Shown here piece by piece: positions 2,106-28,347 of a stretch of DNA of 43,652 bases (positions are counted from its first letter, which is position 1; the number at the start of each line of letters is the position of its first letter). Source of the DNA: Carex sylvatica (Eukaryota; Streptophyta; Magnoliopsida; Poales; Cyperaceae); NCBI GenBank assembly GCA_964058845.1, contig CAXKVR010000331.1:1-43652 (forward strand), in the 5' to 3' direction. A model generated the notes under the pieces. The model was not told the origin of the DNA. It worked only from the letters and a program-made list of their open reading frames with translations, and did no database searches. The position numbers and the translations under genes were made by a program.

Positions 2106-2521
2106 TATGTCAGTGACGAGTTTGGCTAGTATACATTTCAATCTATATAACACCAATTTTAAAGCTTCTCCTCTTCAAACAGTAAATCCAAACAGTTCAA
2201 ACCGATCTACTTCATTAGTTGTGCGTTTACATGCAAAATTTATAAATTTTCGAATTTATTTAGTATTAGGTCAAGCGGTCAAATATGTGAGTTTTTAAAT
2301 TAATTTTAATACATTAATTTTTCAATATTTTTACCGCTTGATTTGATACTAAAATAACTCGAAAATATAAAAAATTTGTCTGTAAACGCATCACACATAA
2401 TGTAAATTGGTTTGAATGGTTTGGATTTACCGTTTGAAGTCAATTTGATAGGTTTTAGAGTTGGTGTTATATAGGTTGAAATGACACTGATGTTATACTA
2501 GCCAAACTCGTCAGTGACATA
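2106..2521. mobile_element. Foldback MITE, near-complete 416-bp palindrome
   Basis: The two halves are reverse complements of each other. TATGTCAGTGACGAGTTTGG at 2106 matches the inverse of the right end at 2521 with one mismatch. Pairing continues inward for about 190 bp per arm through CTTCAAAC-GTAAATCCAAAC and GTGCGTTTACA to a centre at about 2310, at an estimated 80-90% match. Such a structure is a foldback-type or hairpin MITE, and its transcript would form one long hairpin. Weaker inverted similarity (GTGC...GCAC) extends to about 2088-2541, where AATG flanks both sides. That short repeat is too weak to be called a target duplication with confidence. No transposase is encoded. Confidence 0.85.
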
Positions 2522-2544
2522 TCAGGTCTTTTGTCAGCACAATG

Positions 2545-2945
2545 TTTAAATCAGTAGTATATTTATTGCTGATTGTATATGCAATCTAACCCCTTTTATC
2601 TCTTCTCTCCTCCTTATTAAGGAGCTTAATGTCTAGATCCTGCAAGGGTCTTGATTTATTGATCTAAATTCGAATTGAATCTAAACCGTACAGTCAAATA
2701 ATCTGTGTTCCTTTAATTAAATGCATCTTTTATATATGTAGAAGTCTAAATTTAGTTTAAATTGGACTCACTACATGTATAACCACACATCTTATTACAA
2801 ATATTTTTGTTCTACACCATTGAATCTGAATAAAAAATCGTGCTGATTGAATGTCAGATGTGCAATTTTTTTTGGCTGGGACGCTTGTTGCCCATCCCCC
2901 TCCCCCTCCCCGATCCCTTTTTTCCAAAGAAAAAGAATGAGAAAA
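2545..2945. other. Intergenic DNA, no gene seen
   Basis: AT-rich DNA without a supportable exon. The left end of the neighbouring Helitron probably lies here or slightly to the right, but I could not fix a TC-type start. Confidence 0.3.
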
Positions 2946-3125
2946 AAAATCTAATCGCTTCAGTCATCTCCGCCATCTCTCTCGCTCTCTCACCTGACCC
3001 GTGCCGAGAATGAGAAAAATAAATCTGAAAGCTACTTGGCAGAGAGGAGAGACTTCTCTCTTCCCCATTCCCAATTCCGAAATCACCTTTCCAAGATCAA
3101 TTATTTAGAAAAAGTCAAAACAAAT

Positions 3126-3135
3126 TAGGGTTTAG
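3126..3135. promoter_or_regulatory. Telobox-like AGGGTTTAG before the PHD exon
   Basis: TTAGGGTTTAG sits immediately before the ATG at 3136. Together with the pyrimidine-rich leader from about 2955, it suggests that the captured fragment includes the donor gene's 5' UTR and possibly its promoter. Telobox motifs are common near plant housekeeping gene starts. Confidence 0.45.
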
Positions 3136-3261
3136 ATGAAGGCGCGATGCTCCTACAGGCCTGACCTACCAACGGCGGCGGCCGCGGCAGAAGACTGGGG
3201 CGATGGCTCATGGACGGTAGACTGCTCGTGTGGCGTGAACTTCGATGACGGCGAGGAGATG
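3136..3261 (+). pseudogene. PHD-finger protein, captured exon 1
   Basis: This is an open 42-codon exon from ATG 3136 to a GTGAGT donor at 3262. It ends in WTVDCSCGVNFDDGEEM, the first zinc-ligand segment of the PHD finger in a plant PHD-protein group that continues with a CDxCGVWVHTRC-type segment in the next exon. Here the next exon is missing. What follows (about 3319-3378 and 3450-3523) is flanked by splice-like sites but does not read as PHD sequence. PHD fingers bind histone tails, but this fragment lacks half of the zinc cluster and cannot fold as one. It has an Ala-rich start and is preceded by a leader-like region, so it looks like a captured first exon with 5' UTR. Confidence 0.7.
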
Positions 3262-3692
3262 GTGAGTTGTGACTTCGATTTTGTTTTTCGTTTTTTTCAA
3301 GTTCTTTTTTGTTCTCAGCGTAAAGAAAAGCTAGCTATTGAACTGTTGACACGAAGAAGATTAAGGCTAACGAGGAGGTACGCATTACACTTTTGCTGAG
3401 AACTGTTACGAGATCATTCAAAAATGAAACAACAGTAGTGAGGATTTTTTAGGAGGAGTGTGCTAAAATGGAAACTTGTAGATTTTTGGCTGCGAAATTA
3501 GACAATTTTACTTTCTGCGATCAGGTATGTGGATAATATTTTTTGTTTTAATTTCTTTCTTTTTGGTTATTGTTAGACTACTTGTGTATTTGTTTTAGTA
3601 TAGAGAATTTTGATAAATGTTATTTTATTTCTGTTTTCATTAAAACAGTTAATTTATTTTCAACATATTCATCTTAACTTTTTCGTTATCAG

Positions 3693-3972
3693 GTGCAATT
3701 ATTAAGCGAGACTGACGTACTGGCCACCGCACACGGCATGCAAATGACAAACATGATCTTCATGGAAAGAAACAGCAGTGTGATGGAGTTCTACCCGATG
3801 GGGTGGAAGGAGATGGCTGGCTCGCAGACTGGCCCGGGATGAGGCACCAGGGAGCCTGGCGTGACAACGGGGGGGCCTCACTTGCAAGGGCACGACTGCA
3901 AGGTTGGAATGCTTCACTTCATTTAAGGATTGTCAGATCGGGCATGATGCGATTTACTTCTCTAAAAGTGGT
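3693..3972 (+). pseudogene. GT61-family glycosyltransferase C-terminal fragment, frameshifted
   Basis: After an AG acceptor at 3691-3692 the sequence reads LLSETDVLATAHGMQMTNM, then RNSSVMEFYPMGWKEMAG. This matches the conserved ETDVLxTPHGAQLTNM and NSSVMEFFPxGW blocks of plant GT61 (EGF-domain O-GlcNAc transferase-like) enzymes, which work in the Golgi or ER on protein or cell-wall substrates. The frame then shifts at about 3820. The next conserved block, WPGMRHQGAWRD, is in another frame at 3831-3866, and a second shift restores CQIGHDAIYFSK near 3930. Two frameshifts and the missing N-terminal half make this a dead fragment. The His-Gly pair of the THG motif is kept as AHG. Confidence 0.75.
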
Positions 3973-4577
3973 AAAATTGTAAATTGAATGAAATTTTAGG
4001 AACTCTTTTCATTTATTCTCCATTGAATTGAACTCTATGTTTGTTGTCACGATCATAGCCTATTTCTTTGTTTGTCAAATGGAAAAAATCACGATCCCCA
4101 ATTATGCCGCATCCTTGTTTTATTTCAAAAATAAACGTATTGAGTTATTTATCCATATTTGCTTATTTGCTTTATTGAAATTATTTCTTATCCATATTGA
4201 GTTGATGTATTTTTTTACTTAATAGTTCATTTATACTAATAAACTTGGGTTGGGACAGATTTGCCTATGTAGTACATTAATTAAAATTTTCAATTAATTA
4301 TCTTTTTTTACGAGTTCATAACCTATAACACCAAGTTTTTTTAATCCTTCTTTCTTTTTGTCTTCAGTGATTCCAAAACAATGAAATGAGGAGTTAGCAC
4401 TAACAGCATATTCGCAGATGTAGATGAATGATGTCTACTTCTTTTATCTAAGAAAAAACAGATGATGACTCCGGGCTACATGAACCATGAATGTTGCAAC
4501 TCTAACAATTGTTGATTCAGACCATAACAGAAAAGACATGAATGCAAATACCCTCTAAGCTGTAAGCCCCCAATCTA
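3973..4577 (+). other. Helitron interior without recognised coding sequence
   Basis: AT-rich spacer between captured fragments. Some intron-like TTTTCAG ends are visible but I could not match any reading frame to a family. Confidence 0.35.
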
Positions 4578-6563: not shown

Positions 6564-6911
6564 AATATAATACAAGCATATAATAATTAAAAATAAATAA
6601 TTTTTTTGATAGAGTTAAAATTGTAAATTTCGTTTTTAGACTAATAAATAAACGCAAAATAAATGTATCTTAATTTTCTTTTTTTTGACAATAAAAATGA
6701 AACTTATACTTATAGATAAAAATGAATTAATATTTTAAGAAAAAAAAACAGCTTTTATCTTTCTTTTGTAATATATAAAACTTAATCATTTGCATATATT
6801 TTTATTTTTTGCATAAAAGAAATCTACATTTTAATTGGTCTTAAAGTTAAAAGATTAAATTAATAGATTATTTCTCGAGACTCGTGTTCAAGTGGACTAA
6901 TAACTTCAGAT
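6563..6911. other. Intergenic AT-rich DNA, no gene seen
   Basis: No supportable reading frame or RNA gene is visible. Confidence 0.4.
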
Positions 6912-8375: not shown

Positions 8376-8597
8376 GAATTCGTATCCTCTGCATTAACTC
8401 AAAAGGGAATTTTTTGAGTAAATGAATATTGAACATCCGATCTACTTTAAGATTCGTGTATACTAAATTCACACTAATATTAAAGGGCTTCCTATATCAT
8501 AAGCAGGAGCCGGATTGGCTCCGTTTAAAATAAGACGGTTGAGATTCATTAACTCAAAAGATTCGTTTTTGAGTTAACGCAGAGGATATGAACTCCT
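8376..8597. mobile_element. MITE copy B, 222 bp, with AAAATGA flanking duplication
   Basis: TIR GAATTCGTATCCTCTGCATT at the left is mirrored by the AACGCAGAGGATATGAACTC end at right. AAAATGA is present directly outside both ends (8369-8375 and 8598-8604). The interior aligns with copy A. It sits only 18 bp from the flank of copy C and about 300 bp before the glycosyltransferase start codon. Non-coding. Confidence 0.85.
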
Positions 8598-8910: not shown

Positions 8911-11900
8911 ATGGCAACCGTAGTGTCGAGGCGGGGCCCACATGTCCTTCCCGACAGAGAAACCTCCGTCCGACCGTTAGATCGTGGCGGCGGCGTCCGG
9001 CAGAGGCGGGAACCACGCAGGGCCACGTGGCACCGCAAATATTGCGTCTACTGCGTCGGTCTTTCTATGGTTATCGCGTGGGTCATTGTTCTCGCCGTTT
9101 ATCAGCAGGGTTCGATCAATGTCGATGTGCGCCGTACCGCGGCTGAGATGTTGCTGCACGGTGAGCTTCGGAGCACGGAGCAGCGTGCGCACCGGATGTT
9201 GCCATTCTCGTCGTTGTCGGTGGAGGCGAGGTGTGAGGATGGTAAGCTTCAAATTGAGAGATCTAAGCGAGGGAATATTGTCGGGCTGAGGTTGCCTCGT
9301 TTGGCACTCGTGAGTAATCATTTGTTTCTGGTTTAATGAATTAGTTTTTCCTTTGTTTGTATCCTTGTTTTGTACAATTAGATGGAATTCTTTGAGGAGT
9401 TCTACATTAACTTAATGGTCTGAAAATGTAAGGAATTGAAGCTGTGAGGTGGTATTTTGAGGGAAATAAGAAATTCCTTTTGCCTAACATATTGTTTTTT
9501 GGTTTCAGGTTATAGGAAGTGGAAATACAGACGCACAGTTGTTGATGCTGCTAACTCTGACAAAAACACTTACCGGACTTGGTTATAGATTTACTGTGAG
9601 CTTCTTTTCTACACTTTAGTTATCTACTTTTGTTTATTGTCTATCTATTCTAGCTGAATACCCAACATGATGTCATGAGAGTTCAAGAGTTCGTTATTCA
9701 AGTCAAAACTATATTGCTTCTGTTTTATTTTATCTAAAATTATTTTAGCAAAAATGATGTTTGTCTATTTTCTTTTTGATAATAATATTATAGGTTAGCT
9801 TTAAGTTCTGTTTTTTTTTTTTTTTGTCTGGGACACATAATATTTGATAATTCTTCATTTCTTAACAGTGTGAATTTTGGCATGATTTTAATAATTTGAT
9901 TAGGTGTTTACATTTGAGGATGGAGGAGCTTATTACTTGTGGAAAAATATAGGTTATCAAGTGCACATTGTCAAGTCCCTGGGGCTCATGTCCATTGACT
10001 GGTCAAAGTAAGTTTCAAATTTTTGTTACCACTGTAAACCTTTACATTTTATTGGTCCTGATAATAGTGCTTTACTCACCTTTGTTTTGTTTTTAATTAG
10101 TTATGAAGGTGTGATACTAGGTTCCCTTGAATGTAAAAGAGTTCTCCCCAGGTAATTATTTTCTAATGTTTATACTTTTGGTAGTTTTAATTCGCTTCTT
10201 TCTGGGAAGTTTATTAATATTTTCTGGTCTTTTGTTCTCCACACCGTGAAAGCCTTGTATATGAATTTTTTTCAAAATTACACAACCAATACTTGCTTGG
10301 TGAGCTTACAACTCTGACCTCCCACTGTGCACCCAAACTCTAATGTCCCAAATAAGAGCAAAAAGAGAAAAATGCTGATTTCATATGTGATATTCTCCTT
10401 GCTCTGAGCCATACATTATATTCTGATGCTTTATAGAGTTATATCTGAAATTATCCCAAAAAAGAAGAAAAAGCATCCAGTGGTTATGCTGCCAAGGTTC
10501 TTTTCATGTGTTCCAAAACTGCCATCATTGGCTCTAGGTTGTGTTTTTACTTTTAAGAGCCTTCCTTGCATCATGAACTCAGCATGTTACACTGCATTCA
10601 GTCTTATGCAGGAACCCTTTTTATCTATACCTTTAATATGGCTCATTCATGAAGATACTCTCGGGAAGCGTCTCAGAGAATATGAAGAAAAGGGTTTTGA
10701 TAATCTTATTAGCCAATGGAGAAGCTCTTTTTACAGAGCCAATGCCATCATATTTCCTGATTTCTCCCTTCCTGTAAAGCACCTTTGTCTCTCATTGTAA
10801 TTTATAATTCTAAAAATGGTCTCCTTTTCATTGTTTTTAACTTTTCAGCGAACTACCATATTTTCTGTATGATAGATCACTATTACCATCCATGTATGGT
10901 TTGATGCATCCTGCACCTGTTCATTTGTTTGTTTGTGTGGAACAGTCAATGATAAATTGATGCTACATACTTGAGTCAATCCTTTACTGATGATCTAATT
11001 CATTTTTTTTTGTCTTGAAAATTGCATTTCAGTTGCTGTATGTTGCACTTGGTGCTAAAAACTTTATGGTTATTTCTAGTCCCCTTGCCGATGTACTGAA
11101 GACCGAGAGTTACTTGGCTTCTCATTCACAGTATCATGCGAGGAAAGATTATGGATATGGTGAGAATGAACTCATAGTTCTTTTTGTTGGGAGCTATTTC
11201 CACTATGATGACATCATTTGGGATTTTGCGGCTGCAATGCAAGCCTTGGCCCCGCAAGTTTCAAAACTTGAGAAAAGTATGAATGGAGGAGTTCATTCTA
11301 TCTTCTTGTGTGGAAATTCTTCGGATGCCTACAGCTCCTCATTTCAGGCAATACAACTTCTCTCCCTGATAAACTCTGATGGTGACGGGTTTGTTTTATT
11401 TAGTGGTTAACCCTCTATTAAAACTCATTGTTATCCTACCAGGCCAAAAGTTTGAAAATAGTTCATAGCTATGCGTGACCTCATCCATTATGGTACCTAA
11501 ATTTACCAAAAATGACACTACTTGACCTGCCTGAGAAATATATGAAACGAACTTTACAAATATATATGAGAGAAAGGACATGATGACTCCTCTCTCTCTC
11601 TCTCCATCTCTCTATGTTGTTTCCTTTTTGGTTGAAATGAAGAACTTTTCCATCACATAGCTGTTCGCCATTTGCGTGCACTACTAAAATTGGGAATCGT
11701 GATTCTTCTAGGTGGCAGTTCTGCTGTAGTCCTTAACCTGGCACATGAATTGGTGTTAGTCCTCTTTACGAGCTTTCAAGAAAAACAAATTCGAGAATTG
11801 ATCACTTGTTGTTAAACCATATTTCTGTGATAATTTGGTTGTGTGCTACTTGACTTCAGTAAGTCAATCAAACATATCTTATAAAGAAGATATTACAAAA

Positions 11901-14900
11901 GCAAAAGTCTTATCTAACTTTTATGATTAGGAACTTGCAACACAGATGGGTTTCCCTGCTAGTTCAATAAAGCGCTATCCTTTTGATCATGACGCAAGTA
12001 GTTTGCTACTAATAGCTGACATTGTCTTACATGGTTCCTTCAATGAGGAGCCTAGCTTTCCTCCTCTGTTATTGCAAGCCATGTCCTTTGGAGTTCCTAT
12101 TATCGCACCAAACATCAGTCAAATTACAAAGCATGTAAGTCAAGTACTCAAGTAGTTTCTTTTGGCTCAATTTCATGTGTACTGCTGTTAAAATGTCAAT
12201 AAATAATTTATGACCCTGCAAGAGAGAAATATCATATACTCTATCCTAAAAGCCCCCAACAATCCCTTTCCTCATGGTTTCTTCTGTAAATAAAGAGGAA
12301 GAAATGAGGGGTTACTGCGATGTTCTACAAGGAATTAGTAATGCTGTAAAACATTATATTTGCATTGTTTAAATGGGTATGTGAGAAGCTTCTCATTGTG
12401 ATGGTTGCAGGCAGATGTATTGACAATTTGTAGGGTGCACATGAAATAGTTTCTCTTTTATGAATATTTAACCATGTGATGCATAATTCAACTTATGTGC
12501 CTGTTCATTTTTGCATTGTTTTATTTTCTTTAATACTTTTTTTTTGTTTAGTTCTATCTTTAACATTCCAAATTAACATAACTTAGAAAAACTTCTAGTT
12601 GGGCCTTACTTTATCCTTATTTACATGGATATATCCTCACAGGCAACCCCTTGTTAAGCAACTTAACCTCAACTTCCCCATGATTTTACAATTGAGCACC
12701 AAGGTAAGAAAAAAGAAGAAGAAAGGAAGCCCTGAAACAGTGGTCATTTTGGTCCTAGTTATTATATGGGTTTGTAGATACTACATACCACCAATCCTTT
12801 ACATCCACTGGAAGTAATGATTGCTGTTTGTGAGTGCAAATCAAGAGTAAGCTATGTACTGTTGTTTCATTGCTAACACAATAGTTGATGGCAGGTAATT
12901 GATGGAGTTAATGGCTTTCTCTTCCAACCGAAGGACCTGACCACATTGACTAAAGCCTTCTCACGTGTAATAGGAGAACGGAAGCTCTCAGTCTTGGGAA
13001 ACAAAGTTGCTAGCAATGGTAAAATGCTTGCAAAAAATATGCTAGCATATGAATGTGTTTTGTCATATGCAAAACTCCTAGAAAACATGCTATATTTCCC
13101 ATCAAATGTGATGCTTCCGGCTTCTCCCTCTCAAATCCAACAAAAGACATGGTCATGGGACTTGTTTGAGAGGAAAACAACAAATGAGAATGATCAGAGC
13201 ATGGAATTAAGTGTCCTAGAAATGCTTGAGCGACAATTTGAGAAAAATCTTTCTGGAATGTCCCATTTTGAAAATGAGACCTTGAGTGATGACTTCCCCT
13301 CACAGCTAGATTGGGAAGATTTAAATGATATGGAAATCTCGGAAGATATAGAGACACGAGAAGTGCAAGAGGTTAGCTTCATTTATACTTTAATTTCCTT
13401 TGTATTATTTGTTACATGTATCACTTCGGAAGTACATGTTGTCAGTTTATTGCCTTATGAGATACATCAGACATGTATCACTTTGGAAATAAATGTTGCC
13501 AGTTTATTTGCCTTATGAGAAGTTTGCGGTTTTTGCTAATATGGGAAATTCCTTTAGAAGGTCAACCCCATAGACAACTGTCTTGACCAAAGCTAACTTT
13601 GTATACAGAATACCTCAAGAAGATCAACTGGATAATTTTTTTTTTTTTTTTTGAAAAGGAGGTTTGCTATATAGTTAAATTCATTGACCTAAGCTGACCT
13701 TTATGACAGCAAAATTACCCAAATAGCAAGCTAGGTTACATTGGGAAGGTGTATTCTCAACAATTAAACATTGAGAAGGCACATGTCCCATACAGAGGGC
13801 AGTGTTTACCCAAAACATGACTTCATTTTAGTTATTACTAAATATTTCATTTGGTGTAGCTTGAAGAAAGGATCGAGACACCCTTGAAAACATGGGAAGA
13901 TGTGTACCACACTGCCAGAAAGGCTGAGAAGGCAAAATCCGAGAAAAATGAGAGAGATGAAGGGGAGTTAGAGAGAACTGGACAGCCTGTGTGTATATAC
14001 GAGATTTACAATGGAGAGGGGGCATGGCCATTTCTACATCACGGTTCCATTTACCGTGGCATCACCCTGGTATTAACTTGCTAAATTATGAGAACATGCA
14101 ATGTCTTTTTGCCATATTTTCATGAAAGATATCTGTTTTATGTATATATTGCATGTGTAACCTGAAAAGCATATGATATGTAGGTTTCATACCTGCCAGT
14201 ACCACCAGTAAAATACAGAGGAACCAATTAGATAGTAGTTTATGCTTTTTATTGCTAACTGTGTTTTAATGGGAGGTTCTTTGGTGAGTTAGCAATAAAC
14301 AAGTGTAACCATTATTGTACATATAAATGCAGGGGTTATTTATTGGATGCAAACTGGTACTGTCAGACTCTCAGCTGTGTCCCAGTTGGGAATATTTGTT
14401 CAATTCTATATGTCATGACTTGTCAAAGTTTCTCTTTATGCCAGTCCAGAAGTGGCAGGAGACCAGAAACTGATGATGTGGATGCAGTTAGGCGGCTTCC
14501 TGTTTTAGAAGATTCACACTACAGAGATCTTCTGTGTGAGTTTGGTGCAATACTGTCTATTGCTAACAAGGTGGATACCGTCCACAAGTTACCTTGGATC
14601 GGTTTCCAGTCATGGCGTGCCACTAGTAGAATGGTATTTACTCGATGGTCCCATGCCTTTATCGGCTTTATTACTTTTTTGGAGTCTATAACTTTAAATG
14701 ATGGTTTTACCATCTATGTTGGGATCAAAGCCTTGGTGGTTATAACTAATAAGATCATAATCATTGAAATATCCTTTAGAGTTGGTTATGGTTATGTGTT
14801 GACATGCGTTACCATTTATGATCCCAATGCTGAAGTCCCATTCCTTTAGAAAGGTTTCCTTTTGTGGATGCACTGCAAGCACCCTATAGAAAAAGGAAGA

Positions 14901-17900
14901 AAGAAAGAAGTTAAGGAAAAAAAAAAGGAACTATAACTTGATTTTGTTGGGGATTTACTGAAAAAGTCCTTTGTATAGGTTTCTTTGTCAAAAACTGCTG
15001 AAAAAAAGTTGGAGACGATTATTATGGAAGAAAACAAGGGAGATGCTGTTTATTATTGGGCACTTTTGGATATGGATCTGAATGCGAACAAATTTGACTT
15101 TTGGTCCTCGTGTGATAGCCTAAATGCAGGTCACTGCAGGTATTTTTATTTAAATAAATTGATGTTTTACTATCATTTATATTTGATAAAAAAAAAATTC
15201 AATGCCAAGCAGCTTGTACTCTAAATTTTTTGAAGGCAATGGATGACAAGGTGGATTCTTTTGTTGGATGATAGTTGCTGGTACCTTATAGAAGGACCAT
15301 ATTTTAGAAATTGTGGTATCTTTTCCACAAAGGTTACCGGTTCTAGAGTTATATGTAGAGTTGGAATCCAACCATACCGGTTTTAATTTCCAATTAAATA
15401 TGAACAGTCAGATCCCTGAAACTCGATCTCGACCCAGTACCAGCTGAAACCTTGAACCAATTACTCGATCCCGAACCAGTACTAGTCGAAATCCTGAACC
15501 CATAACTCAATTCCGACCAAGTACCAGTCAAAATTATGAACCCATAACTCAATCCCGACCCAGTACTAGTCGGAACCCTGAACCCATAACTCAATCCCGA
15601 CCAAGTACTAGTTGGGTCCGTAGACCGGTACCGGTTCCATTACATCCTTTACCTGTGGATGCAATTGATGAGGACAGTTTAGAGAGCGGGGATGAGAGGC
15701 TCTTAGATGAGTCATCAGGTTCTGACAGTGATGTTATGTCAACCATACAGTCACAATCACAGTCCCGGAAAGCACGTTACCCGATAACTGATCGAGAAGA
15801 TATGAGACATCCGATTGATAGTTTCAATGACATATTCAGTTTTCGTCCTGCGGATGTCAATTTTTTCGGCAGGTCAACGAGAACATTCGATAATCCATTG
15901 GCCAAAGGCCAAGTGTTTGAGTCGAAAGCAGCTCTAAGGGTACCAATAAATGAGTTTCATATCCAGTCCAATCGTGAATGTTTGGTTTCTAAAAGCTAAA
16001 CTAAACATTTAACTATAAAGTGCAGAGATAATTTTTGCAAATTCAAATTATCCGCTAAGTCTAACGGTCTTTCAGGATCTTGAATTATTACCAAATAAGC
16101 AATTCTTCATGTATGTAAAGTACCGGCAACACGCTCTGATCATCGTCAGCTAACTGCAGAGATAATTGCCCTATCAATCGATGATACCATTAGAAAGAAT
16201 GTGTGCGCGACTATAAATCATATCCGCGATGTGGTAAAAAAAGAGTACAAAAATGTAACACCCAAGTACAACAAATTATGGCGAGGCCGTGAGCTTGCTA
16301 TTGCAAATTTGTTTGGCAGTTGGGAGGACTCGTACAACTTGCTTATTTCACTTTTGGAAGCCATACAAAGAAAATAATCCGGGAACCAAATATTGTGTGA
16401 CCTCGACCCCTATTGCTGATAATACTGATAGGCAATTCAATCAAGCGGCATGGGCATATGGGCCGTGTATTGCAGCGCTACTATTCCTTAGACCAGTGAT
16501 TAGTATAAACTGAGATTTTTTTAGAGGATCCGGCACCGGAATCTCTTGAAACAATCCGAATTGCCGCATACAACGATCCGGATAAGTATGCTCAACTATC
16601 CAATAAAATATCAGTGGACTGCAATACAAGTAGTAAGGCTGAGAAATTTATTCAGAATGATAGTTGCTGGTACCTTATAGAAGGACCATATTTGTGTTGT
16701 CTTAATCTACATAATTATGGCCTTGATTTGTGTTATAACAGGTGAACTAATATTTTCTAAGGTTACTGAACTGTTAGCTCATACTTCAATTGGCAGATCT
16801 TTACTCATTGATTATGGTCTTGTTTTCTTTATTCTTTTGTCGTCTTATTTTTACATGATTATGCTGTTGTTTTCTTGTGTTATAACAAGTGAACTAATAT
16901 GTTCTAAGATTGCTTAATTGGTAGCTTATATTTTAATTGGCAGATCTTTATTCAGTGATGCATTCAGACTGATGTATGGTCTTGAAGAGAACATGGCATC
17001 TTTGCCCCCTATGCCTGTTGGTGGGTCCTACTGGTCTGCTCTTCATAGCTGGATCATGCCTACACCCTCGTTCCTGGAGTTCATTATGTTCTCAAGGTAT
17101 GCTTCGTCGCGAGAATAAGAGACAATAATCGCGCTTCAAAGTAGCCTCATATAGCTTGTTGTGGTATACTGAGACAAAATCACACTCGACCAGCCCAAAT
17201 GAATAATTCATAATCCAACCTTTTTGAGCTTAATACTGGACTCCTATCTGATTTAATTGGGTTTACCTGAATATGAGTAACATGACCTGAGACAAAATCA
17301 CACTCGACCAGCACAGTTAAACCTGACCTGACTACAAAAATAATTCAATGTGCCCCAAAATAACTCACAACCCCAAGTTTACAAGACTGGAACTACGGAG
17401 GATCAGAAATATACTTGAGGTGGCCAGAGACTCAAACAAGTCAAATGCTACCCGTAAACCCCAAGTTGCCCTTGTGACTCTAATTAAGTATAATTCTGTT
17501 AGGTTGATTGCTAACCTACCAGTCTGTCTAAAATATAAAGCTTATAGAGGTAGTTAACTTCTATAGTATTTCATTTTTTTTTAATATCTTTCCTCAGAAT
17601 GTTTCTGGATTCACTTGATCAGCTGAGTTACAACAAAAGCAATCCTTCTTGTTTGCTGGGATCATCTGAAATAGAGGTGCTAAAATATCTCTCTACTATG
17701 GGTTACTATACCAGAAATTTGGTCAGGTCATATCCAAATCAGTATGATATGCCCCAGTTCTGACCCCTTCTGTTTATTATATATGTTTTGGTGGGCTTGT
17801 TTTGTATTTGGTGTTGGAAGTAAGGGTAACTCGAGACTAAACTGGATTGCAAAAGAGTATTGCACATTTGAGGGGTGGTTTAGGTAAAAATGGGTTAAAT

Positions 17901-18543
17901 TTAGGCCTTGTTTCATAATTGAGGGTTAATTGAGGTTTGATTGAACACCTATGAACCAACTTCCATACTGGTTGTGCACCCATCAAAAATATCAATTGCA
18001 ATGCCTATTGTTATTTTCTGGTCGAAATTTATGCTTATTGATGAAAATACCAATTGTAATACTTGCTCACTCCAAATTGTGATCTCTATTTAAGAAGTGC
18101 TTTATTATGATCCTGAAGTGCCAAATCATCTTATCTGGATTCATCTTTTGGCTCAGAAAAGACAGTGTTACTGCCGTATTCTGGAATTCCTGGTAAATAT
18201 CTGGGCCTATCACAGTGGTAGAAGGATGTTTTACCTTAACCCAGTTACGGCCCAGCTGTCCGAACAACACCCTCTTGAGCAAAGACAAGGGGTAATTTGG
18301 GCAAAATACTTCCAACCTACCCTGTTGAAGAGCATGGATGAGGATTTGGCTGAAAAGGCAGATGATGACTTATATCTTAATTCTAACTGGCTTTGGCCTC
18401 TAATGGGAGAAGTGCATTGGCAAGGGGTATTTGACCGAGAGAGGGAAGAACGCTATGTAAAAAAGATGGACAAAAAGAGAAAGACGAAAGAAAAATTGCT
18501 TGATCGGCAGAAATATGGTTACAAGCAAAAAGCCTTGGGGTAA
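8911..18543 (+). CDS. Plant GT-B (GT4-like) glycosyltransferase, single-pass membrane protein, 14 exons
   Basis: Predicted exons: 8911-9309, 9509-9595, 9904-10007, 10101-10151, 10602-10773, 11033-11347, 11931-12134, 12895-13371, 13860-14069, 14445-14633, 14979-15139, 16944-17096, 17598-17676, 18157-18543. Together they encode 995 residues with all phases consistent. The N-terminus is Arg-rich with one hydrophobic helix at about residues 44-65 (CVYCVGLSMVIAWVIVLAV), suggesting a type II, probably Golgi, protein. The GT-B domain holds the FPPLLLQAMSFGVPIIAPN block (residues 419-437), and the plant-specific C-terminal half holds ERDEGELERTGQPVCIYE, WIGFQSWRAT and LKSMDEDLAE. This is the family of Arabidopsis At5g04480 and At4g01210, whose acceptor is unknown to me. 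Exon 6 to 7 needs a GC donor. The stop at 18541 follows KQKALG; relatives continue with a GKYVKPP-like tail, so a further short exon using the GTAAAT at 18540 is possible. Confidence 0.88.
11348..11930 (+). other. GC-AG intron in the glycosyltransferase gene
   Basis: Exon 6 ends ...TCATTTCAG and the intron would start GCAATA, ending at ATTAG before GAACTTGC. Splicing here gives SSSFQ-ELATQMGF, which has the length seen in the family (xxLQAVASRLGF-type). Reading on gives a stop at 11408, and the nearest downstream GT would insert extra residues. GC donors occur in about 1% of plant introns. Confidence 0.75.
11590..11614. repeat. CT-rich microsatellite in intron 6
   Basis: A run of CTCTCTCTCTCTCT within the GC-AG intron. 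Simple repeat with no coding role. Confidence 0.8.
15268..15304. repeat. 37-bp direct repeat, left copy, flanking the MULE fragment
   Basis: It starts ATGATAGTTGCTGGTACCTT and ends ACCATATTT. It is identical to 16657-16693. The two copies bracket the inserted MULE piece in intron 11, so the 37 bp represent a duplicated target. Confidence 0.95.
15305..16656 (+). mobile_element. Internal MULE fragment inserted in intron 11, no terminal repeats
   Basis: This 1352-bp segment matches 24634-25985 of the MULE in the same orientation with a constant offset of 9329, hence no indels. I count 11 substitutions, about 99.2% identity. It contains the end of the PB1-like part, a tandem PITQSRPSTS-type repeat (15413-15620), and the N-terminal MuDR DNA-binding part with FESKAALRVPINEFHIQSNR. 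There is no terminal inverted repeat or transposon end. Ten of the 11 differences are transitions; eight give T or A here where the other copy has C or G, including one that turns TGG into TGA. Non-functional passenger sequence in the intron. Confidence 0.92.
16657..16693. repeat. 37-bp direct repeat, right copy
   Basis: Identical to 15268-15304. Its first four bases, ATGA, also match the donor sequence at the right junction. The last bases of the left copy, ATTT, match the donor at the left junction. Confidence 0.95.
16729..16952 (+). repeat. Tandem duplication of the exon 12 splice acceptor region
   Basis: Two diverged copies, 16729-16805 and 16876-16952, both run from TGTGTTATAACA to AATTGGCAGATCTTTA. 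The second contains the true acceptor of exon 12 (exon starts 16944). The first offers a cryptic acceptor 147 bp upstream. Use of the cryptic site keeps the frame but meets a TAA at 16915-16917, so it would truncate the protein. Confidence 0.8.
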
Positions 18544-19039: not shown

Positions 19040-19235
19040 TTTATGAAGAATTTTATGGAGTTAATGTTCTAAAGCAAATGTTTTTTGATACATTAGTTGA
19101 TATAATCAATTTGTTTCTTGAATTTGATATTACTTATATTTGGAATAAGAAGTCAAGATTGTGAGACACAATCTCGTAACAAGTAATAAACTCTATATTT
19201 TTCTAATCTTTGTAATTAGTAAGAAACACTGATTA
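19040..19235 (+). repeat. Left arm of a large inverted repeat
   Basis: Starts ATGAAGAATTTTATGGAGTT and continues through AGAAGTCAAGATTGTGAGAC and CTCGTAACAAGTAATAAA to about 19235 (AACACTGA). It is the reverse complement of 20390-20585 with scattered mismatches and a few indels. No coding content. Similarity stops abruptly at both ends. Confidence 0.75.
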
Positions 19236-20389
19236 CATGTGATTAGCGTAATGATTAAATATTGATTGAATTTCACAGATGAAGCGACATGGGTCAGTTT
19301 AATATCACAAATGCATATGAGGTCATATGACATTGGAAGTGATATAATGCTGAACATTATATTAGGGGTTTGGGTGTGTCTATGTCATTAATATTCGCAT
19401 GGTGTAAATGTCTTAAGTCTGAGATGATTCGGTGTCCTCACTTGGGATATGTGCAGATGATGTTATTTTGAAGATCTTCTGCAAAGAGATAAGTAGTTAT
19501 TCTCTATACCAATCTTACTTCGAGGATTTCTTGTAGAATCAAGAAGATAAATATCTCTCATCACGATATGAGTATCTGGATGAGTGATGATATCTGCTGG
19601 ACTCCTTGATTGAGCGAGATTATATATACGCATTATAATCTTGGAGATTGTAAATATAATCAACCTCATGATGGACCAAATTGGTACTATTAACTTTTAG
19701 CATATAAAAATATACTTAGTTACCCTAATTCCTACTTTCGTTCTGATCACAAGCGTATGATCCTACCGTGTAGTAATGTTGGGTGTCGATCCACAGGGAT
19801 AAATCTTTAAATGAATAACGTCTACTAGTCTAGGTTCACCGGTTAAAATAGTTTTGAGGCGAGGTGCTAGTATGCAGATAAAACACATAAATAGATAGAT
19901 ATAGAGAGCCTCTAGGGTTCATATCATATCCTTCTAAATGAAGCAAAGTATAATTCAGACGTTTCTCTGTCTCGCATATGGTCCTGTCACTACTGCATGC
20001 GACATGGATAGTCCCGCGAGGCAACCCACATACGGTACTATCACTACCTGCAGGTGCCTAGGGTTTCTGACTTATGCGATTTGAAAGGTTTTTCAATCTT
20101 TCGATCGGCTTTTGGGAGTAATGATAGGGGTGAAATAAGTAGTGATTTTTTCTATCACTTAACCTAAAATATTGTCATTTATCGAATTATAATTACTCAT
20201 TTTATATGGAACCAGATTTCTTTATGTTATTTTACTTGATTTTAGAGAATTACATATTTCCAACGATATTCAATCTAAAACAGGCATAAAACGAAGCAAT
20301 TCTGACACTTAGTCTCAGGCGTGCGGATGCCCTCATTCGCATGTGACCCAGAGAGCTGTCGCACAAGAGGTTATGCCCTCAGTGTTCCT
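19236..20389. other. Non-coding repeat interior between the inverted arms
   Basis: No recognisable gene. TGTCGATCCACAGGGATAAA at about 19786 belongs to a repeat wording that recurs, inverted, at 22555-22575 (TCCCTGTGGATCGATACC). The interval is probably a decayed non-autonomous transposable element. Confidence 0.45.
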
Positions 20390-20585
20390 TACTAATAACG
20401 AAGATTAGAGAAATCTATAATTTATTACTTGTTACGAGATAGTGTCTCACAATCTTGACTTCTTGTTTCAAATATAAGTAATAGCAAACTCAAAGAACAA
20501 GTTGATTATATCAACCAATGTATGAACAAACATGCAAAAAACATCTGCTCTATGACATTAACTCCATAAAATTCTTCATCTACTT
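20390..20585 (-). repeat. Right arm of the large inverted repeat
   Basis: Reverse complement of the left arm. On the right the sequence beyond 20590 is not matched outside the left arm, so the pair may be two separately inserted copies of one family in opposite orientation rather than the ends of a single element. No target duplication was found. Confidence 0.7.
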
Positions 20586-22722: not shown

Positions 22723-22776
22723 CAATAAAGTACCTACAACATTAATTTATTCATATTGAACGACAAACTACACAAA

Positions 22777-23349
22777 ATGGTTGCTTCAAACATGAGTTTT
22801 CGTTCTCCTTTAGTTATTATCTTGCTTCTTGCATCGTTTGTTTATCTTCCATATTTCACCGATGCTTCTCTTTTGTCCTCTATCTGTAGTAGAGTAAAAA
22901 TGCATCAACCAACATTACTAAGTGTATCTCATGATTTTTGCTTGACATCCTTACAGATTGACCCAAAAAGTGCATCAGCCAACTTAACCGGTCTTCTTCA
23001 AAATAGCATAAATCTTACAATTAAAAATACAACAGATTTAATGTCACACGTAAGATATGTACTTGCGGACAAGACATATTCGCATCTCAAGGAAGGCCTC
23101 AGTTGCTGTCAAATTGAGTACACTAGAGCATTCAATTATCTATTTGAAGCTCTCCATCAAATTTCTAAGAAGTCTTCAAAACAATACAAGGATAATACCA
23201 AATCTTCACTCAGCGATGCTCAGGAATCAATGGTCTATTGCGCGAATTATTGTGACATAAACCTCCATAAAATTTTGTCTAAGAAGTATGAAAATGTATT
23301 TAAGCTCCTTCAATTAGCTCTTTCCTTTTGTTATGAATTAAACTTTTAA
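22777..23349 (+). CDS. Plant invertase / pectin methylesterase inhibitor (PMEI) family protein
   Basis: An intronless 190-residue secreted protein. The start is ATG 22777; an upstream TTG-initiated extension is not credible in a plant. Residues 9-30 form a signal peptide (PLVIILLLASFVYLPYFTDA). After it come helical blocks with cysteines at 37, 55, 110, 111, 155, 159 and 185. The first two plus the later C110/C155 positions fit the four-cysteine hairpin-and-bundle layout of the family, although the C37-C55 spacing is wider than usual and there are extra cysteines. N-glycosylation sites occur at NLT (69) and NLT/NTT (79-85). These proteins bind invertases or pectin methylesterases in the apoplast or vacuole; which one cannot be told here. 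It has its own TATA box and sits between a non-coding repeat and the MULE. Confidence 0.75.
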   Translation: MVASNMSFRSPLVIILLLASFVYLPYFTDASLLSSICSRVKMHQPTLLSVSHDFCLTSLQIDPKSASANLTGLLQNSINLTIKNTTDLMSHVRYVLADKTYSHLKEGLSCCQIEYTRAFNYLFEALHQISKKSSKQYKDNTKSSLSDAQESMVYCANYCDINLHKILSKKYENVFKLLQLALSFCYELNF

Positions 23350-23548: not shown

Positions 23549-23557
23549 TATATTGTG
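23549..23557. repeat. Left 9-bp target-site duplication of the MULE
   Basis: TATATTGTG, identical to 28339-28347. Nine bp is the length made by Mutator-type transposases. Confidence 0.92.
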
Positions 23558-23638
23558 CCGAAATTTTTATTAATATCCAAAATTTGAAAAGAATTACTGA
23601 ATCTACTCAGTTTGCTGAAGGAATTCGATTTGTGTCCT
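23558..23638 (+). repeat. MULE left terminal inverted repeat
   Basis: Pairs with 28257-28338. Best-conserved blocks are TTTTTATTAATA, GAATTACTGAATCTAC and ATTCGATTT. There are indels between the two ends. Confidence 0.85.
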
Positions 23639-23788
23639 GTCCGGTTATTTATTAACTGGACCTTTCTTTTCAGTTATTTATTAACCGGACAAGGAAAATT
23701 GGTTCGGTTAATAAATAATCGGACAGGGAACAATTCGGTTAAAATATAACTGGAAAGATAGAATTGGTCCGGTTATTTATTAACTAGG
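23639..23788. repeat. Left subterminal array of five 22-bp palindromes
   Basis: Copies of GTCCGGTTATTTATTAACYG-type palindromes begin at 23639, 23669, 23703, 23733 and 23767, spaced 30-34 bp. They match the array at the other end of the element. Position and repetition suggest transposase-binding sites. Confidence 0.8.
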
Positions 23789-23814
23789 CACAATTGCCTG
23801 ATATACCCCGCAAT

Positions 23815-24260
23815 TCCAATTTAGTCTGATAACACGCAGCTCAATTCAATTCCAATTTAGTCTGATAACCCGCAGCTCAATTCAATTCCAATTTAGTATG
23901 ATAATCTGCAGCTCAATTCCAATTTAGCCTGGTAAAATTCGTCCGATACAATTTTGAGAAAAATAGAAGAAAAAGAAAAAAAATGTAAGTTTCTTTTATA
24001 AATAATTTATAATCCCGCAGTTCAATTTCAATTTAGTATGATAAAATTCGTCGGACAAAATTTTGAGAAAAAAAGAAGAAGAAAAAAATGTAAGTTTCTT
24101 TTAAAAATAATTTATAAATTATGTTGTAATTTATTGTTGATAAATTATATAAATATGACCTGCGCATTCGTCTAATTTTGTATCTGTCAGAGAAAATTTT
24201 GAATTTGTATCTGAGAAGAAAAGAAGGGAAAAGAGAAGAGAAGAAAAAATGTAAGTTTTC
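23815..24260. repeat. Tandem repeats in the MULE 5' region
   Basis: CAATTCCAATTTAGTCTGAT followed by AACxCGCAGCTC repeats about every 50 bp from 23815 to 23940. A longer unit, starting with TTTAGTATGATAAAATTCGT and including GAGAAAAA-AGAAGAA and ATGTAAGTTTCTTTTA, then occurs at about 23930 and 24035, with a weaker third copy near 24190. Non-coding, presumably an internal promoter or leader region. Confidence 0.7.
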
Positions 24261-24366
24261 TTTACAAATAAGTTGTAAATTATTTAATTTCTGAAATTAT
24301 GTTGTACTTATAATATTATAATTTTTTTAAATTGTAGTTTGTTATCCAAACCAATCAAAACAAAAA

Positions 24367-25985
24367 ATGACCACCATTTGTGTGAGGATTTTTGTTGAAG
24401 GAGAAATCAGGTACAATGATGACGGGGTTTTTATAGTACCCGACCTAAATACTCATTATCTATAACCATAAATCATAACTTTGATTATCTCCAGAATGAA
24501 ATTTATAAACTGGTTGGGTATAATGTCAGTGAAGCAAATCTAGAAATCTAAGACAAGTTTAATATGTCTACCGATGGCGAATGTGACTATCAATTAATAC
24601 TGATAACAAACCAGCAATCACTGGAAATGATTTTAGAAATTGTGGTATCTTTTCCACAAAGGTTACCGGTTCTAGAGTTATATGTAGAGTTGGAATCCAA
24701 CCATACCGGTTTTAATTTCCAATTAAATATGAACAGTCAGATCCCTGAAACTCGATCTCGACCCAGTACCAGCTGAAACCTTGAACCAATTACTCGATCC
24801 CGAACCAGTACTAGTCGAAATCCTGAACCCATAACTCAATCCCGACCAAGTACCAGTCAAAATTATGAACCCATAACTCAATCCCGACCCAGTACTAGTC
24901 GGAACCCTGAACCCATAACTCAATCCCGACCAAGTACTAGTTGGGTCCGTAGACCGGTACCGGTTCCATTACATCCTTTACCTGTGGATGCAATTGATGA
25001 GGACAGTTTAGAGAGCGGGGATGAGAGGCTCTTAGATGAGTCATCAGGTTCTGACAGTGATGTTATGCCAACCATACAGTCACAATCACAGTCCCGGGAA
25101 GCACGTTACCCGATAACTGATCGAGAAGATATGAGACATCCGATTGATAGTTTCAATGACATATCCAGTTTTCGTCCTGCGGATGTCAATTTTTTCGGCA
25201 GGTCAACGAGAACATTCGATAATCCATTGGCCAAAGGCCAAGTGTTTGAGTCGAAAGCAGCTCTAAGGGTACCAATAAATGAGTTTCATATCCAGTCCAA
25301 TCGTGAATGTTTGGTTTCTAAAAGCTAAACTAAACATTTAACTATAAAGTGCAGAGATAATTTTTGCAAATTCAAATTATCCGCTAAGTCTAACGGTCTT
25401 TCAGGATCTTGAATTATTACCAAATAAGCAATTCTTCATGTATGTAAAGTACCGGCAACACGCTCTGATCATCGTCAGCTAACTGCAGAGATAATTGCCC
25501 TATCAATCGATGATACCATTAGAAAGAATGTGTGCGCGACTATAAATCATATCTGCGATGTGGTAAAAAAAGAGTACAAAAATGTAACACCCAAGTACAA
25601 CAAATTATGGCGAGGCCGTGAGCTTGCTATTGCAAATTTGTTTGGCAGTTGGGAGAACTCGTACAACTTGCTTATTCCACTTTTGGAAGCCATACAAAGA
25701 AAATAATCCGGGAACCAAATATTGTGTGACCTCGACCCCTATTGCTGATAATACTGATAGGCAATTCAATCAAGCGGCATGGGCATATGGGCCGTGTATT
25801 GCAGCGCTACTATTCCTTAGACCAGTGATTAGTATAAACTGGGATTTTTTCAGAGGATCCGGCACCGGAATCTCTTGAAACAATCCGAATTGCCGCATAC
25901 AACGATCCGGATAAGTATGCTCAACTATCCAATAAAATATCAGTGGCCCGCAATACAAGTAGTAAGGCTGAGAAATTTATTCAGA
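24367..25985 (+). pseudogene. MuDR-type MULE transposase, truncated and interrupted
   Basis: From ATG 24367 the PB1-like N-terminal region is visible (MTTICVRIFVEGEIRY, then NEIYKLVGYNVSEANLEI and LPVLELYVELES), broken by stops. A Ser/Thr/Pro tandem repeat follows. The DNA-binding part of MuDR (FESKAALRVPINEFHIQSNR...KS) lies at 25241-25328. Then come the helical segment with KNVCATINHIRDVVKKEYKN and the start of the catalytic region, WAYGPCIAALLFLRPVISI. Family members continue DGTFLRGKY with the first catalytic Asp; here IN-DFFRGS is followed by unrelated sequence. The DDE catalytic core, SWIM finger and the rest are missing, so this cannot be an active transposase. Several frame changes and stops (for example at 24774) confirm decay. 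Confidence 0.85.
24743..24950 (+). repeat. 42-bp coding tandem repeat in the MULE transposase
   Basis: About five units encode variants of NPEPITQSRPSTSR (14 residues, 42 bp). One unit has a TGA in place of an Arg or Gln-type codon. The same array is present in the intron fragment at 15413-15620. Confidence 0.85.
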
Positions 25986-25989
25986 ATGA

Positions 25990-26600
25990 AAATGTGAGTT
26001 ATAATTTATAAGTACATATAACTAAATAAATAACTTAAGTAAAACATACCCTTTCCTCCTGAGTCACTCTCGGAAGTTTGTGGTAGACACTCTTGTACGG
26101 CTCCTAATTCACCAAATTATCCGTCAACGCCTGAAACTAGCTTCGGGATACCTGCACCGGCAGTCTTGGCGTGAGAAGAGTTCTCGTACTTATGTGGACA
26201 ACACCATTTGTATGCAAAAGATGAGCATGTTTCGTCATCTGGGGCGCCCCAGGCAGGTTCTCAGTTATTATCTAGAGGTTTCGGTCGATGAACTGAAAAG
26301 CGGGTCCACGACCAGTGTTGGAGAAGCATCACTGGACCATGCATAGATCTGTTCCCGGGATCAGTAGCGGTACATAGATGTCGATATAGATATGCAAGAA
26401 CCGCTTCACCCCAATTTTATTGTACCGGATTGTCCAAATCCACAATTAGATCGAGATACCACAGCGGTATCTCGTCCCCGCCACTATCTGCGAACAAACT
26501 GGACGATAATAGGTCCAAGATAAATGCACGGACATACCTAGAAAATTTCAAGAATGTGAGTACATTAATGATAGGATGAAGTACAAAATAAGTTGAGATT
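25990..26600 (+). other. MULE interior after the transposase, no recognised domain
   Basis: A frame starting near 26060 is Ser/Pro-rich and contains two stops. Another at 26080-26346 is open but unlike any family I know. This may be the decayed tail of the transposase or of another captured gene. Confidence 0.4.
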
Positions 26601-26639
26601 TATATATAAAATACTTATCACTTCAGAGTTTATGCATCG

Positions 26640-27357
26640 GGGTCTTCCGGCAGCACACTATATCCCTCACGGAACTTAGATTTTATGAAAGTCAACTCCA
26701 TGTATTTTGCGTTTTCCTAAGATCCTCGTCTTTTCATAAGTCCCCTCTGTTAATGCTCTTGGATCTCTAATAATTCGAAGAGCCAATTTTTTGCATTCGT
26801 TCCGTCTGTACTCCCCGTCACTGGGGCTCCCACAATGGACAAACCCCACAAACAGCTTACGTCCTCCAACGTAACTGTAATTTATCAAATAAAAAATATA
26901 AATTTCTTCATTTGGATTGTCGGTAAATTATAACAAAGAAGGTTAATAAATTTGAATTAGTTTAGTTAATACCTATCATCTCTCCAAATGAAAGATGAAA
27001 GGTGTGCGTCTTAGGACGTCATCGCTCTACAAGTCCGTGTATCAACGTCGCATCGATCTGGATGTTAGGCATGCATGCGATCTGGTATAAGCCCAATCGA
27101 ATAAAAAATGACGCGTACGAACTGTTGTACGAGGTATGACAATTGTAGTGCTTGACATTTATAACCTCTGAATTCTACATTACCGAAAATAAAAATTAAA
27201 AATTAAAATATGATCAGATTTCTGAACAAGTCACGAAAAAATAAATTCTTACCTCCTTAGAAGCTTCACAAACCTTATGATTGCTGTGAGGTATCCACAA
27301 GAGATCACTGAAAGTATCCCGCTCCCTCTGTACTTGATTATTGATTTCGTCTGTCAT
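26640..27357 (-). pseudogene. Plant mobile domain (PMD) gene inside the MULE, broken
   Basis: Read on the - strand. Exon 1 is 27357 down to 27253 (35 codons, ends ASKE before GTAAGA). Exon 2 is 27174 to 26973, containing GLYQIACMPNIQIDATLIHG and then VER-stop-RPKTHTFHLSFGEM. Exon 3 starts at 26874 with VTLEDVSCLWGLSIVGAPVT. This order (IDxALIxxLVERWRPxTHTF HLPFGEMT, TLxDVxxLxGLPIDGxPVTG) is the plant mobile domain, found in MAIN-like nuclear proteins and widely carried by plant transposons. The conserved Trp of VERWRP is a TGA here (TGG to TGA), and exon 3 has further stops. Splice phases still fit, so decay is recent. It lies opposite to the transposase, as a second gene of the element. Confidence 0.85.
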
Positions 27358-27399
27358 ACTACAAAATTAATTCAAAATTAATTCAGTAATCTTAACTAT

Positions 27400-27915
27400 A
27401 TTTCGACAACAATTACTACTCAACAAATTTCGAAATATAATTCTAAAACGTTGGCATTCAACCATTCAACAATATTCGAGTTAAATGCATTCAACAAATA
27501 TTGTAAACAATTTCTAAATTATTTCTAAACAATTTCTAAACAAATATACAACAAATATTCTAAACAATTCCTAAACAAATTTCGAAATATAATTCTAAAA
27601 TTTTGGCATTCAACCATTCAACAATATTCGAGTTAAATGCATTCAACAAAAATCCTAAACAATTTTAAAATTATTTCTAAATAATTTCTAAACTATTTCT
27701 AAACAATTCCTAAACAAATATTCTAAACCATTTCTAGCCAATATTCGGGTCATATAACAAATATTGTAAATAATTTCTAAATAATTTCTAAACAATTTCT
27801 AAACAAATATTTCTAAATAAATATTCAACAAAAAATAATTTCTAAACAATATTCAACAACCATTCAATAATTTCTAAATTATTTAAACCACAATCTAAAT
27901 AATATTCTAATATTC
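27400..27915. repeat. AT-rich tandem repeat, AACAATTTCTAA type
   Basis: Dozens of degenerate TTTCTAAACAA units. A larger duplication is superimposed: CAAATTTCGAAATATAATTC and TTGGCATTCAACCATTCAAC occur at about 27425 and again at about 27580. Non-coding. Confidence 0.8.
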
Positions 27916-28070
27916 TATAAATAATAATAAAAAAATATGTTGAGCCAGCACCTTTCTTCTCCCTTCACTGCCTTCCTTTCTCTTCCACGAGCACCCTCTT
28001 TTTTTTTTCCGCCGTGCCTCCCTCCTTTTTTTTTTTATGCCGCGACGAGACAGCCCTTCCTGCTCCTACC

Positions 28071-28256
28071 GTCCGGTTTATTATTAACCGGAGCAACCTT
28101 ACTTTCCGATTAATTATTAACCGGACTCATGTGTTCGATTAGTTATTAATCGGACGAAGCTCCTCTGTTCGGTTAATTATTAACTGGATGAATCTCAGTT
28201 GTTCAGTTAATTATGAACCGGAAAGGAAGGATTTGTCCGGTTAATAATTAACCGAA
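28071..28256. repeat. Right subterminal array of six 22-bp palindromes
   Basis: Palindromes of the GTCCGGTTAATAATTAACCG type begin at 28071, 28104, 28134, 28168, 28202 and 28234. Mean spacing is close to 33 bp, about three turns of the helix. Same consensus as the left array. Confidence 0.85.
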
Positions 28257-28338
28257 CAGGGCAGAAATCGAAATTTTTTGCACAGTAGGGTAGATTCAGT
28301 AATTCGTTTCAATTTTTGGGTATTAATAAAATTTTTGG
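28257..28338 (-). repeat. MULE right terminal inverted repeat
   Basis: Inverse of 23558-23638, ending AAATTTTTGG at 28338. Confidence 0.85.
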
Positions 28339-28347
28339 TATATTGTG
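28339..28347. repeat. Right 9-bp target-site duplication of the MULE
   Basis: TATATTGTG, identical to the left copy at 23549-23557. Confidence 0.92.

Follow-up and report, generated by a model that had tools for sequence, protein, structure and literature searches.

A copied interior fragment of a neighbouring MULE, flanked by a 37-bp target duplication, in a glycosyltransferase intron of Carex sylvatica

Introduction

How a transposon fragment that lacks transposon ends comes to lie within a host intron is the question raised by a 43,652-nt stretch of Carex sylvatica DNA (contig CAXKVR010000331.1, hereafter the window), in which an intron of a glycosyltransferase gene holds 1352 bp of MULE sequence between two copies of a 37-bp target duplication. 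A sequence-only reading of the window had proposed that the fragment was copied from a MULE further along the contig during the repair of a staggered break. The insert is most likely a repair-mediated duplication, a known kind of event that is here of larger size; the means by which the copy was made is less certain, and is considered below together with the alternatives. The features of the gene, the insert and the donor element all lie on the plus strand.

The host gene

The glycosyltransferase gene (8911..18539) was modelled by hand with 14 exons, three of whose borders were set by trying variants. The model encodes an open protein of 991 aa. With a Carex rostrata protein annotated as UDP-glycosyltransferase superfamily it shares 96% identity (830/867 columns); the two differ by 3 residues where exons 4 and 5 meet, the alignment ends at model residue 864, and both this border and the part of the model after residue 864 are uncertain. 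Intron 6 appears to start with GC rather than GT (11348-11349), a join that agrees with the Carex protein.

Intron 11 (15140..16943) is 1804 bp in length, or 415 bp once the insert and the second 37-mer are subtracted, and the other introns of the model measure 93-760 bp. The exon 11/12 join is unbroken in the alignment to the C. rostrata protein and the frame is open across the intron; the insert sits between exons 11 and 12 of the hand model, in the intron to which it was originally assigned. The 3' end of intron 11 also contains a tandem duplication (16699-16812 and 16841-16959) that takes in the splice acceptor together with the opening bases of exon 12; it is an older event, with copies 80.5% identical over 118 columns, and leaves a second acceptor-like AG near 16796.

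The insert and its target duplication

The insert (15305..16656) aligns base by base with 24634-25985 over 1352 columns with 11 substitutions and 0 gaps (1341/1352 positions the same), exactly as had been claimed; in a self-comparison of the window this pair is the best non-self match, at 1360 bp and 99.2% with the microhomologies counted in. The donor lies downstream on the same strand, at a distance of 7,940 bp. On either side of the insert stands one copy of a 37-bp piece of the intron (15268..15304 on the left and 16657..16693 on the right); the copies are identical at 37/37 bases, the identity extends 0 bases to either side, and the final four bases of the left copy (ATTT) and the opening four of the right (ATGA) are also found in the donor. 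No target bases were lost at the insertion site, and the junctions of the insert carry 0 extra bases at either side.

After complexity filtering, the window holds 31 direct repeats that are exact over 14 bp or more and have a spacing of 60-6000 bp, among which the 37-mer is the second longest. In 11 of these, more than 70% of the interior (at least 50 bp) has a match at another place in the window: the 37-mer, eight repeats within arrays belonging to the MULE or to its copy, and two more, of which one belongs to the tandem duplication at the intron 3' end and the other (8392-8560) to a dispersed repeat that has diverged (74%). A 99% end-to-end copy of a distant sequence is flanked by the 37-mer alone.

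The absence of transposon ends, also part of the sequence-only reading, is borne out: no inverted pair of at least 14 bp occurs in 15139-16943, leaving the insert without terminal inverted repeats, and its boundaries fall inside the MULE. Whereas MULE transposition is expected to produce a target duplication of about 9 bp, 37 bp are present here; the missing inverted ends, the length of the duplication and the internal boundaries together rule out transposition of a MULE as the origin of the insert. Insertion of a reverse-transcribed MULE RNA by a retrotransposon would account for a target duplication, which accompanies such insertions (PMC2671141); however, reading of the sequence found no poly-A or poly-T tail at either insert end, 37 bp is long for a duplication of this origin and the donor lies in cis, so that this route is the least credible of those considered. 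No intron was identified in the donor segment, and intron loss is thus no guide to reverse transcription.

The insert could also be an assembly artefact, a repeat wrongly placed at a gap through a 37-base overlap, since it is repetitive sequence and the assembly to which its contig belongs is partial; against this, 11 bases set it apart from the donor, no other scored copy is nearer, and the gene is open on both sides, which makes an artefact highly improbable.

The donor MULE

The donor segment (24634..25985), delimited by alignment to the insert and to relatives, lies inside a MULE (23558..28338) defined by its terminal inverted repeats, the outer 49 bp of which are 90% complementary. Identical 9-bp target duplications, read by eye, border the element at 23549..23557 and 28339..28347; as the donor retains both its inverted ends and this duplication, nothing moved out of it, and the insert reproduces the interior of the MULE, as first proposed, with its source still in place.

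The element is internally deleted and its frames are broken by stops. These short frames gave no match to the MULE transposase, MuDR or SWIM domains, and the middle part of the element is missing; the MuDR-type transposase of the family is instead seen in relative L022 (contig C387), which has an open frame of 900 aa with PF10551 (MULE transposase, 1.7e-11), PF03108 (MuDR DNA-binding, 2.6e-8) and SWIM (3.4e-5) domains. Relatives match the donor up to 25835 and resume from about 25849 with kilobases between (on C387, for example, matches end at 2875 and restart at 6638), which places the internal-deletion junction at 25836..25848. Among the scored copies, only the insert and the donor span this junction.

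Nine MULE copies match the insert with equal score, extent and identity (contigs C877, C843, C700, C665, C584, C387, C321, C190 and C35), which suggests a recent burst. Elsewhere in the window, a pectin methylesterase/invertase inhibitor-like frame (22729-23349; PMEI, 5.2e-11) stops some 200 bp short of the donor MULE; an inverted pair of about 200 bp (19043-19232 and 20379-20579; 84.6% identical, 1.15 kb apart) perhaps represents the ends of another element; and a minus-strand frame at 31763-32440, matching zf-RVT, the zinc-binding domain of reverse transcriptases (1.2e-19), is probably a LINE remnant.

Source of the copied segment

Statements on other MULE copies hold for the scored copies in the searched 64 Mb of genome sequence (G000). 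Within this scope the donor matches the insert at 99%, while the next-best scored match reaches 87% over 1-1202; shorter scored pieces reach 89%, and one piece of 131 bp reaches 91%. A better donor was found neither among the 40 scored of 105 candidates, nor among the 40 scored of 270 or the 40 scored of 92, in three comparisons. With the 99% match, the private deletion junction carried by the insert and no better match among the scored copies, the identification of this MULE as the donor holds.

Relatives run through both boundaries of the insert (query positions 1235 and 2586), with C226 matching over 615-2436 and C149 over 2450-3986; this continuity indicates that the insert is an arbitrary cut from the MULE interior, and a nested element inside the MULE was rejected as its source on the same grounds.

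A query made of the joined intron flanks, representing the empty site, matched this locus alone in the searched 64 Mb, itself seemingly a partial genome. A complete plant genome is expected to contain at least 14 proteasome subunit genes; the whole searched sequence gave three proteasome-domain matches at two places, a count in which short exons may have been missed, and for this reason the sequence is read as partial and the absence of an empty site from it means little.

Five other MULE fragments, taken with short flanks, were searched for exact direct repeats of at least 12 bp, a weak test. None were found at L061, L062 or L064; at L063 and L065 such repeats are present in AT-rich or tandem arrays, and a T-rich 13-mer that also brackets the MULE remnant at L065 is taken as low complexity. 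L062 (contig C48, about 436321-438298) is an inverted repeat in which two MULE pieces lie; its arms, at least 933 nt long and 94% complementary, are separated by 112 nt and reach the edge of the examined sequence. Its layout resembles the hairpin design of maize Mu killer, and small RNAs directed at this MULE family could arise from the locus.

Junction microhomology and mechanism of copying

Each end of the insert has a junction ambiguity of 4 bp common to intron and donor, ATTT on the left and ATGA on the right, and the claim that the edges of the 37-bp unit are themselves the microhomology proved correct. Four or more ambiguous bases occur in 2.3% of 400,000 random intron/MULE breakpoint pairs; the chance of at least 4 bp at both junctions is about 5e-4, a value computed after the fact. 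These overlaps support priming by microhomology, though they too were noticed after the fact.

The best explanation, held with moderate confidence, is repair that copied a nearby ectopic template by two-ended, microhomology-primed synthesis-dependent strand annealing. Intron 11 would be opened by a break or by a pair of opposed nicks with 37 bases between them, which would leave both 3' ends with a 37-base single-strand stretch; the end in ATTT and the other end, the complement of ATGA, would each anneal by four bases to the MULE 7.9 kb downstream. Both annealed ends would then be extended toward each other along the MULE by a polymerase, and the newly made strands, with 1352 bp of complementarity, would anneal and be sealed. 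The outcome would be a copied MULE piece with the 37 bases on both sides and the MULE remaining in place. We infer the staggered break, the priming from both ends and the polymerase activity from this product. Two-ended annealing is put first because rice commonly shows duplications of tens of bases that are ascribed to adjacent nicks, and because the recorded proximal repair duplications include a class that combines microhomology with target duplication. Of the staggered-break model in the sequence-only reading, copying from the MULE and microhomology at both ends stand; its geometry of two 3' overhangs fits the locus, but a double template switch and the end-joining of a captured fragment into a staggered break would each give an identical product.

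The chief rival is a double template switch in replication or break-induced synthesis, a type of event that goes by the names MMBIR and FoSTeS. A 3' end would leave the intron at ATTT, copy 1352 bp of the MULE and return at ATGA, 37 bases behind its point of departure. This route accounts for the same microhomologies and suits a near, same-strand donor, and the product sequence is the same as that of two-ended annealing; however, the locus displays neither further switches nor added junction bases. It is regarded as a possible but tentative alternative.

Two further routes were weighed. A double-stranded MULE fragment broken out elsewhere may have been end-joined by microhomology into a staggered break, and the 4-bp microhomologies at both ends do fit alternative end joining; since the MULE at 23558-28338 is still present, the fragment would have to derive from a sister chromatid or homologue, and copying from a nearby template is simpler, so that fragment joining is judged improbable. 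An origin in two steps, with a 37-bp tandem duplication followed by entry of a MULE piece exactly at the seam, is favoured by the frequency of tandem duplications in rice (PMC7971508) and by the older one at the intron 3' end; the second event would have to strike the exact seam with microhomology on both sides, and such a sequence of events is very unlikely.

Substitutions and age

In polarising the 11 substitutions, the nearest relatives (C226, C33 and C191) served as the main guide; counts across the family are non-independent, as some genomic places occur twice (e.g. L003 and L013). Seven changes are placed on the insert (208, 435, 465, 532, 1023, 1218 and 1316 in insert numbering) and two on the donor (921 and 1314), with two undecided: 1044, where T in the nearest relative stands against C in most copies, and 1209, which is without a relative. 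On the coding strand of the gene, C to T accounts for five of the seven insert-derived changes, and G to A and A to G for one each, numbers too small to test for a strand bias.

An excess of changes on the insert is what error-prone synthesis would leave, and in this respect the 7 vs 2 split would suit a double template switch; the split was also counted in favour of two-ended repair copying. The excess is not significant, however (two-sided binomial, 0.18). Six of the seven insert changes (C to T or G to A) are of a kind that ordinary cytosine deamination yields as well, and error-prone synthesis was rejected as a conclusion from the excess. A stronger form of the template-switch reading would make the locus a germline fossil of microhomology-primed replicative switching in a plant, in which 1.35 kb of a neighbouring transposon was copied at a raised error rate before the return 37 bases behind; this is considered doubtful. 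If it were true, copying on the kilobase scale would mean that template-switch synthesis in plants can be far more processive than the usual short fillers.

The divergence between insert and donor is 0.81%. With plant substitution rates of 0.65-1.3e-8 per site and year, the event is dated to about 0.3-0.6 million years ago; the zero differences between the 37-bp copies are consistent with this estimate.

Comparison with known repair products

Narrow searching of sedge-related literature (titles and abstract starts) returned no repair scars of this type, which is weak evidence of absence. Vaughn and Bennetzen reportedly treated patch-mediated tandem duplication in rice in 2014. The closest described class is the repair-mediated duplication by capture of proximal DNA in vertebrates (Pace, Sen, Batzer and Feschotte 2009; PMC2671141). 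The sedge insert shares with that class a copy of a nearby donor kept intact and in place, breakpoint microhomology together with target duplication, and the lack of a poly-A or poly-T tail; of the 39 proximal breakpoints listed there, three display microhomology with target duplication and two more have filler as well. Proximal inserts in that set reach at most 619 bp with donors within 5 kb, target duplications over the whole table are 4-21 nt, and the authors consider longer events atypical; here the insert is 1352 bp, the duplication 37 bp and the donor distance 7.9 kb. That 1352 bp and 37 bp exceed the proximal human set counts against two-ended annealing as the best explanation.

Plant systems resemble the insert in part. 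In rice, another monocot, duplications of tens of bases are attributed to repair of adjacent nicks and are common (PMC7971508); the length of the duplication is alike, although the plain tandem duplications of rice have no foreign piece between the copies while the sedge case has one. Filler DNA of 1-123 bp at rice transposon excision sites (PMC4423477) is likewise a foreign segment copied by synthesis-dependent strand annealing, but the sedge insert is 1352 bp long and its site bears no sign of excision. Templated insertions by Arabidopsis polymerase theta (PMC10923293) share microhomology priming on a template; these are small segments within deletions, whereas the target here loses no base. 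In intron 1 of wheat VRT-A2, a 563-bp stretch is replaced by 160 bp from the immediate flanks (PMC8364232), and its authors hypothesize break repair with a local template, as is proposed for intron 11; the wheat rearrangement lacks a transposon piece.

Significance

The locus indicates that transposon pieces without ends can enter gene introns without transposition, and repeat annotation would probably label a fragment of this sort as a MULE insertion. So little time has passed since the event that the donor, the target duplication and both microhomologies are still legible; this legibility makes the scar a good test case for the reach of ectopically templated repair synthesis in plants. The locus contributes a sedge example on the kilobase scale, and is a clean, unusually long case of a known kind of repair scar.
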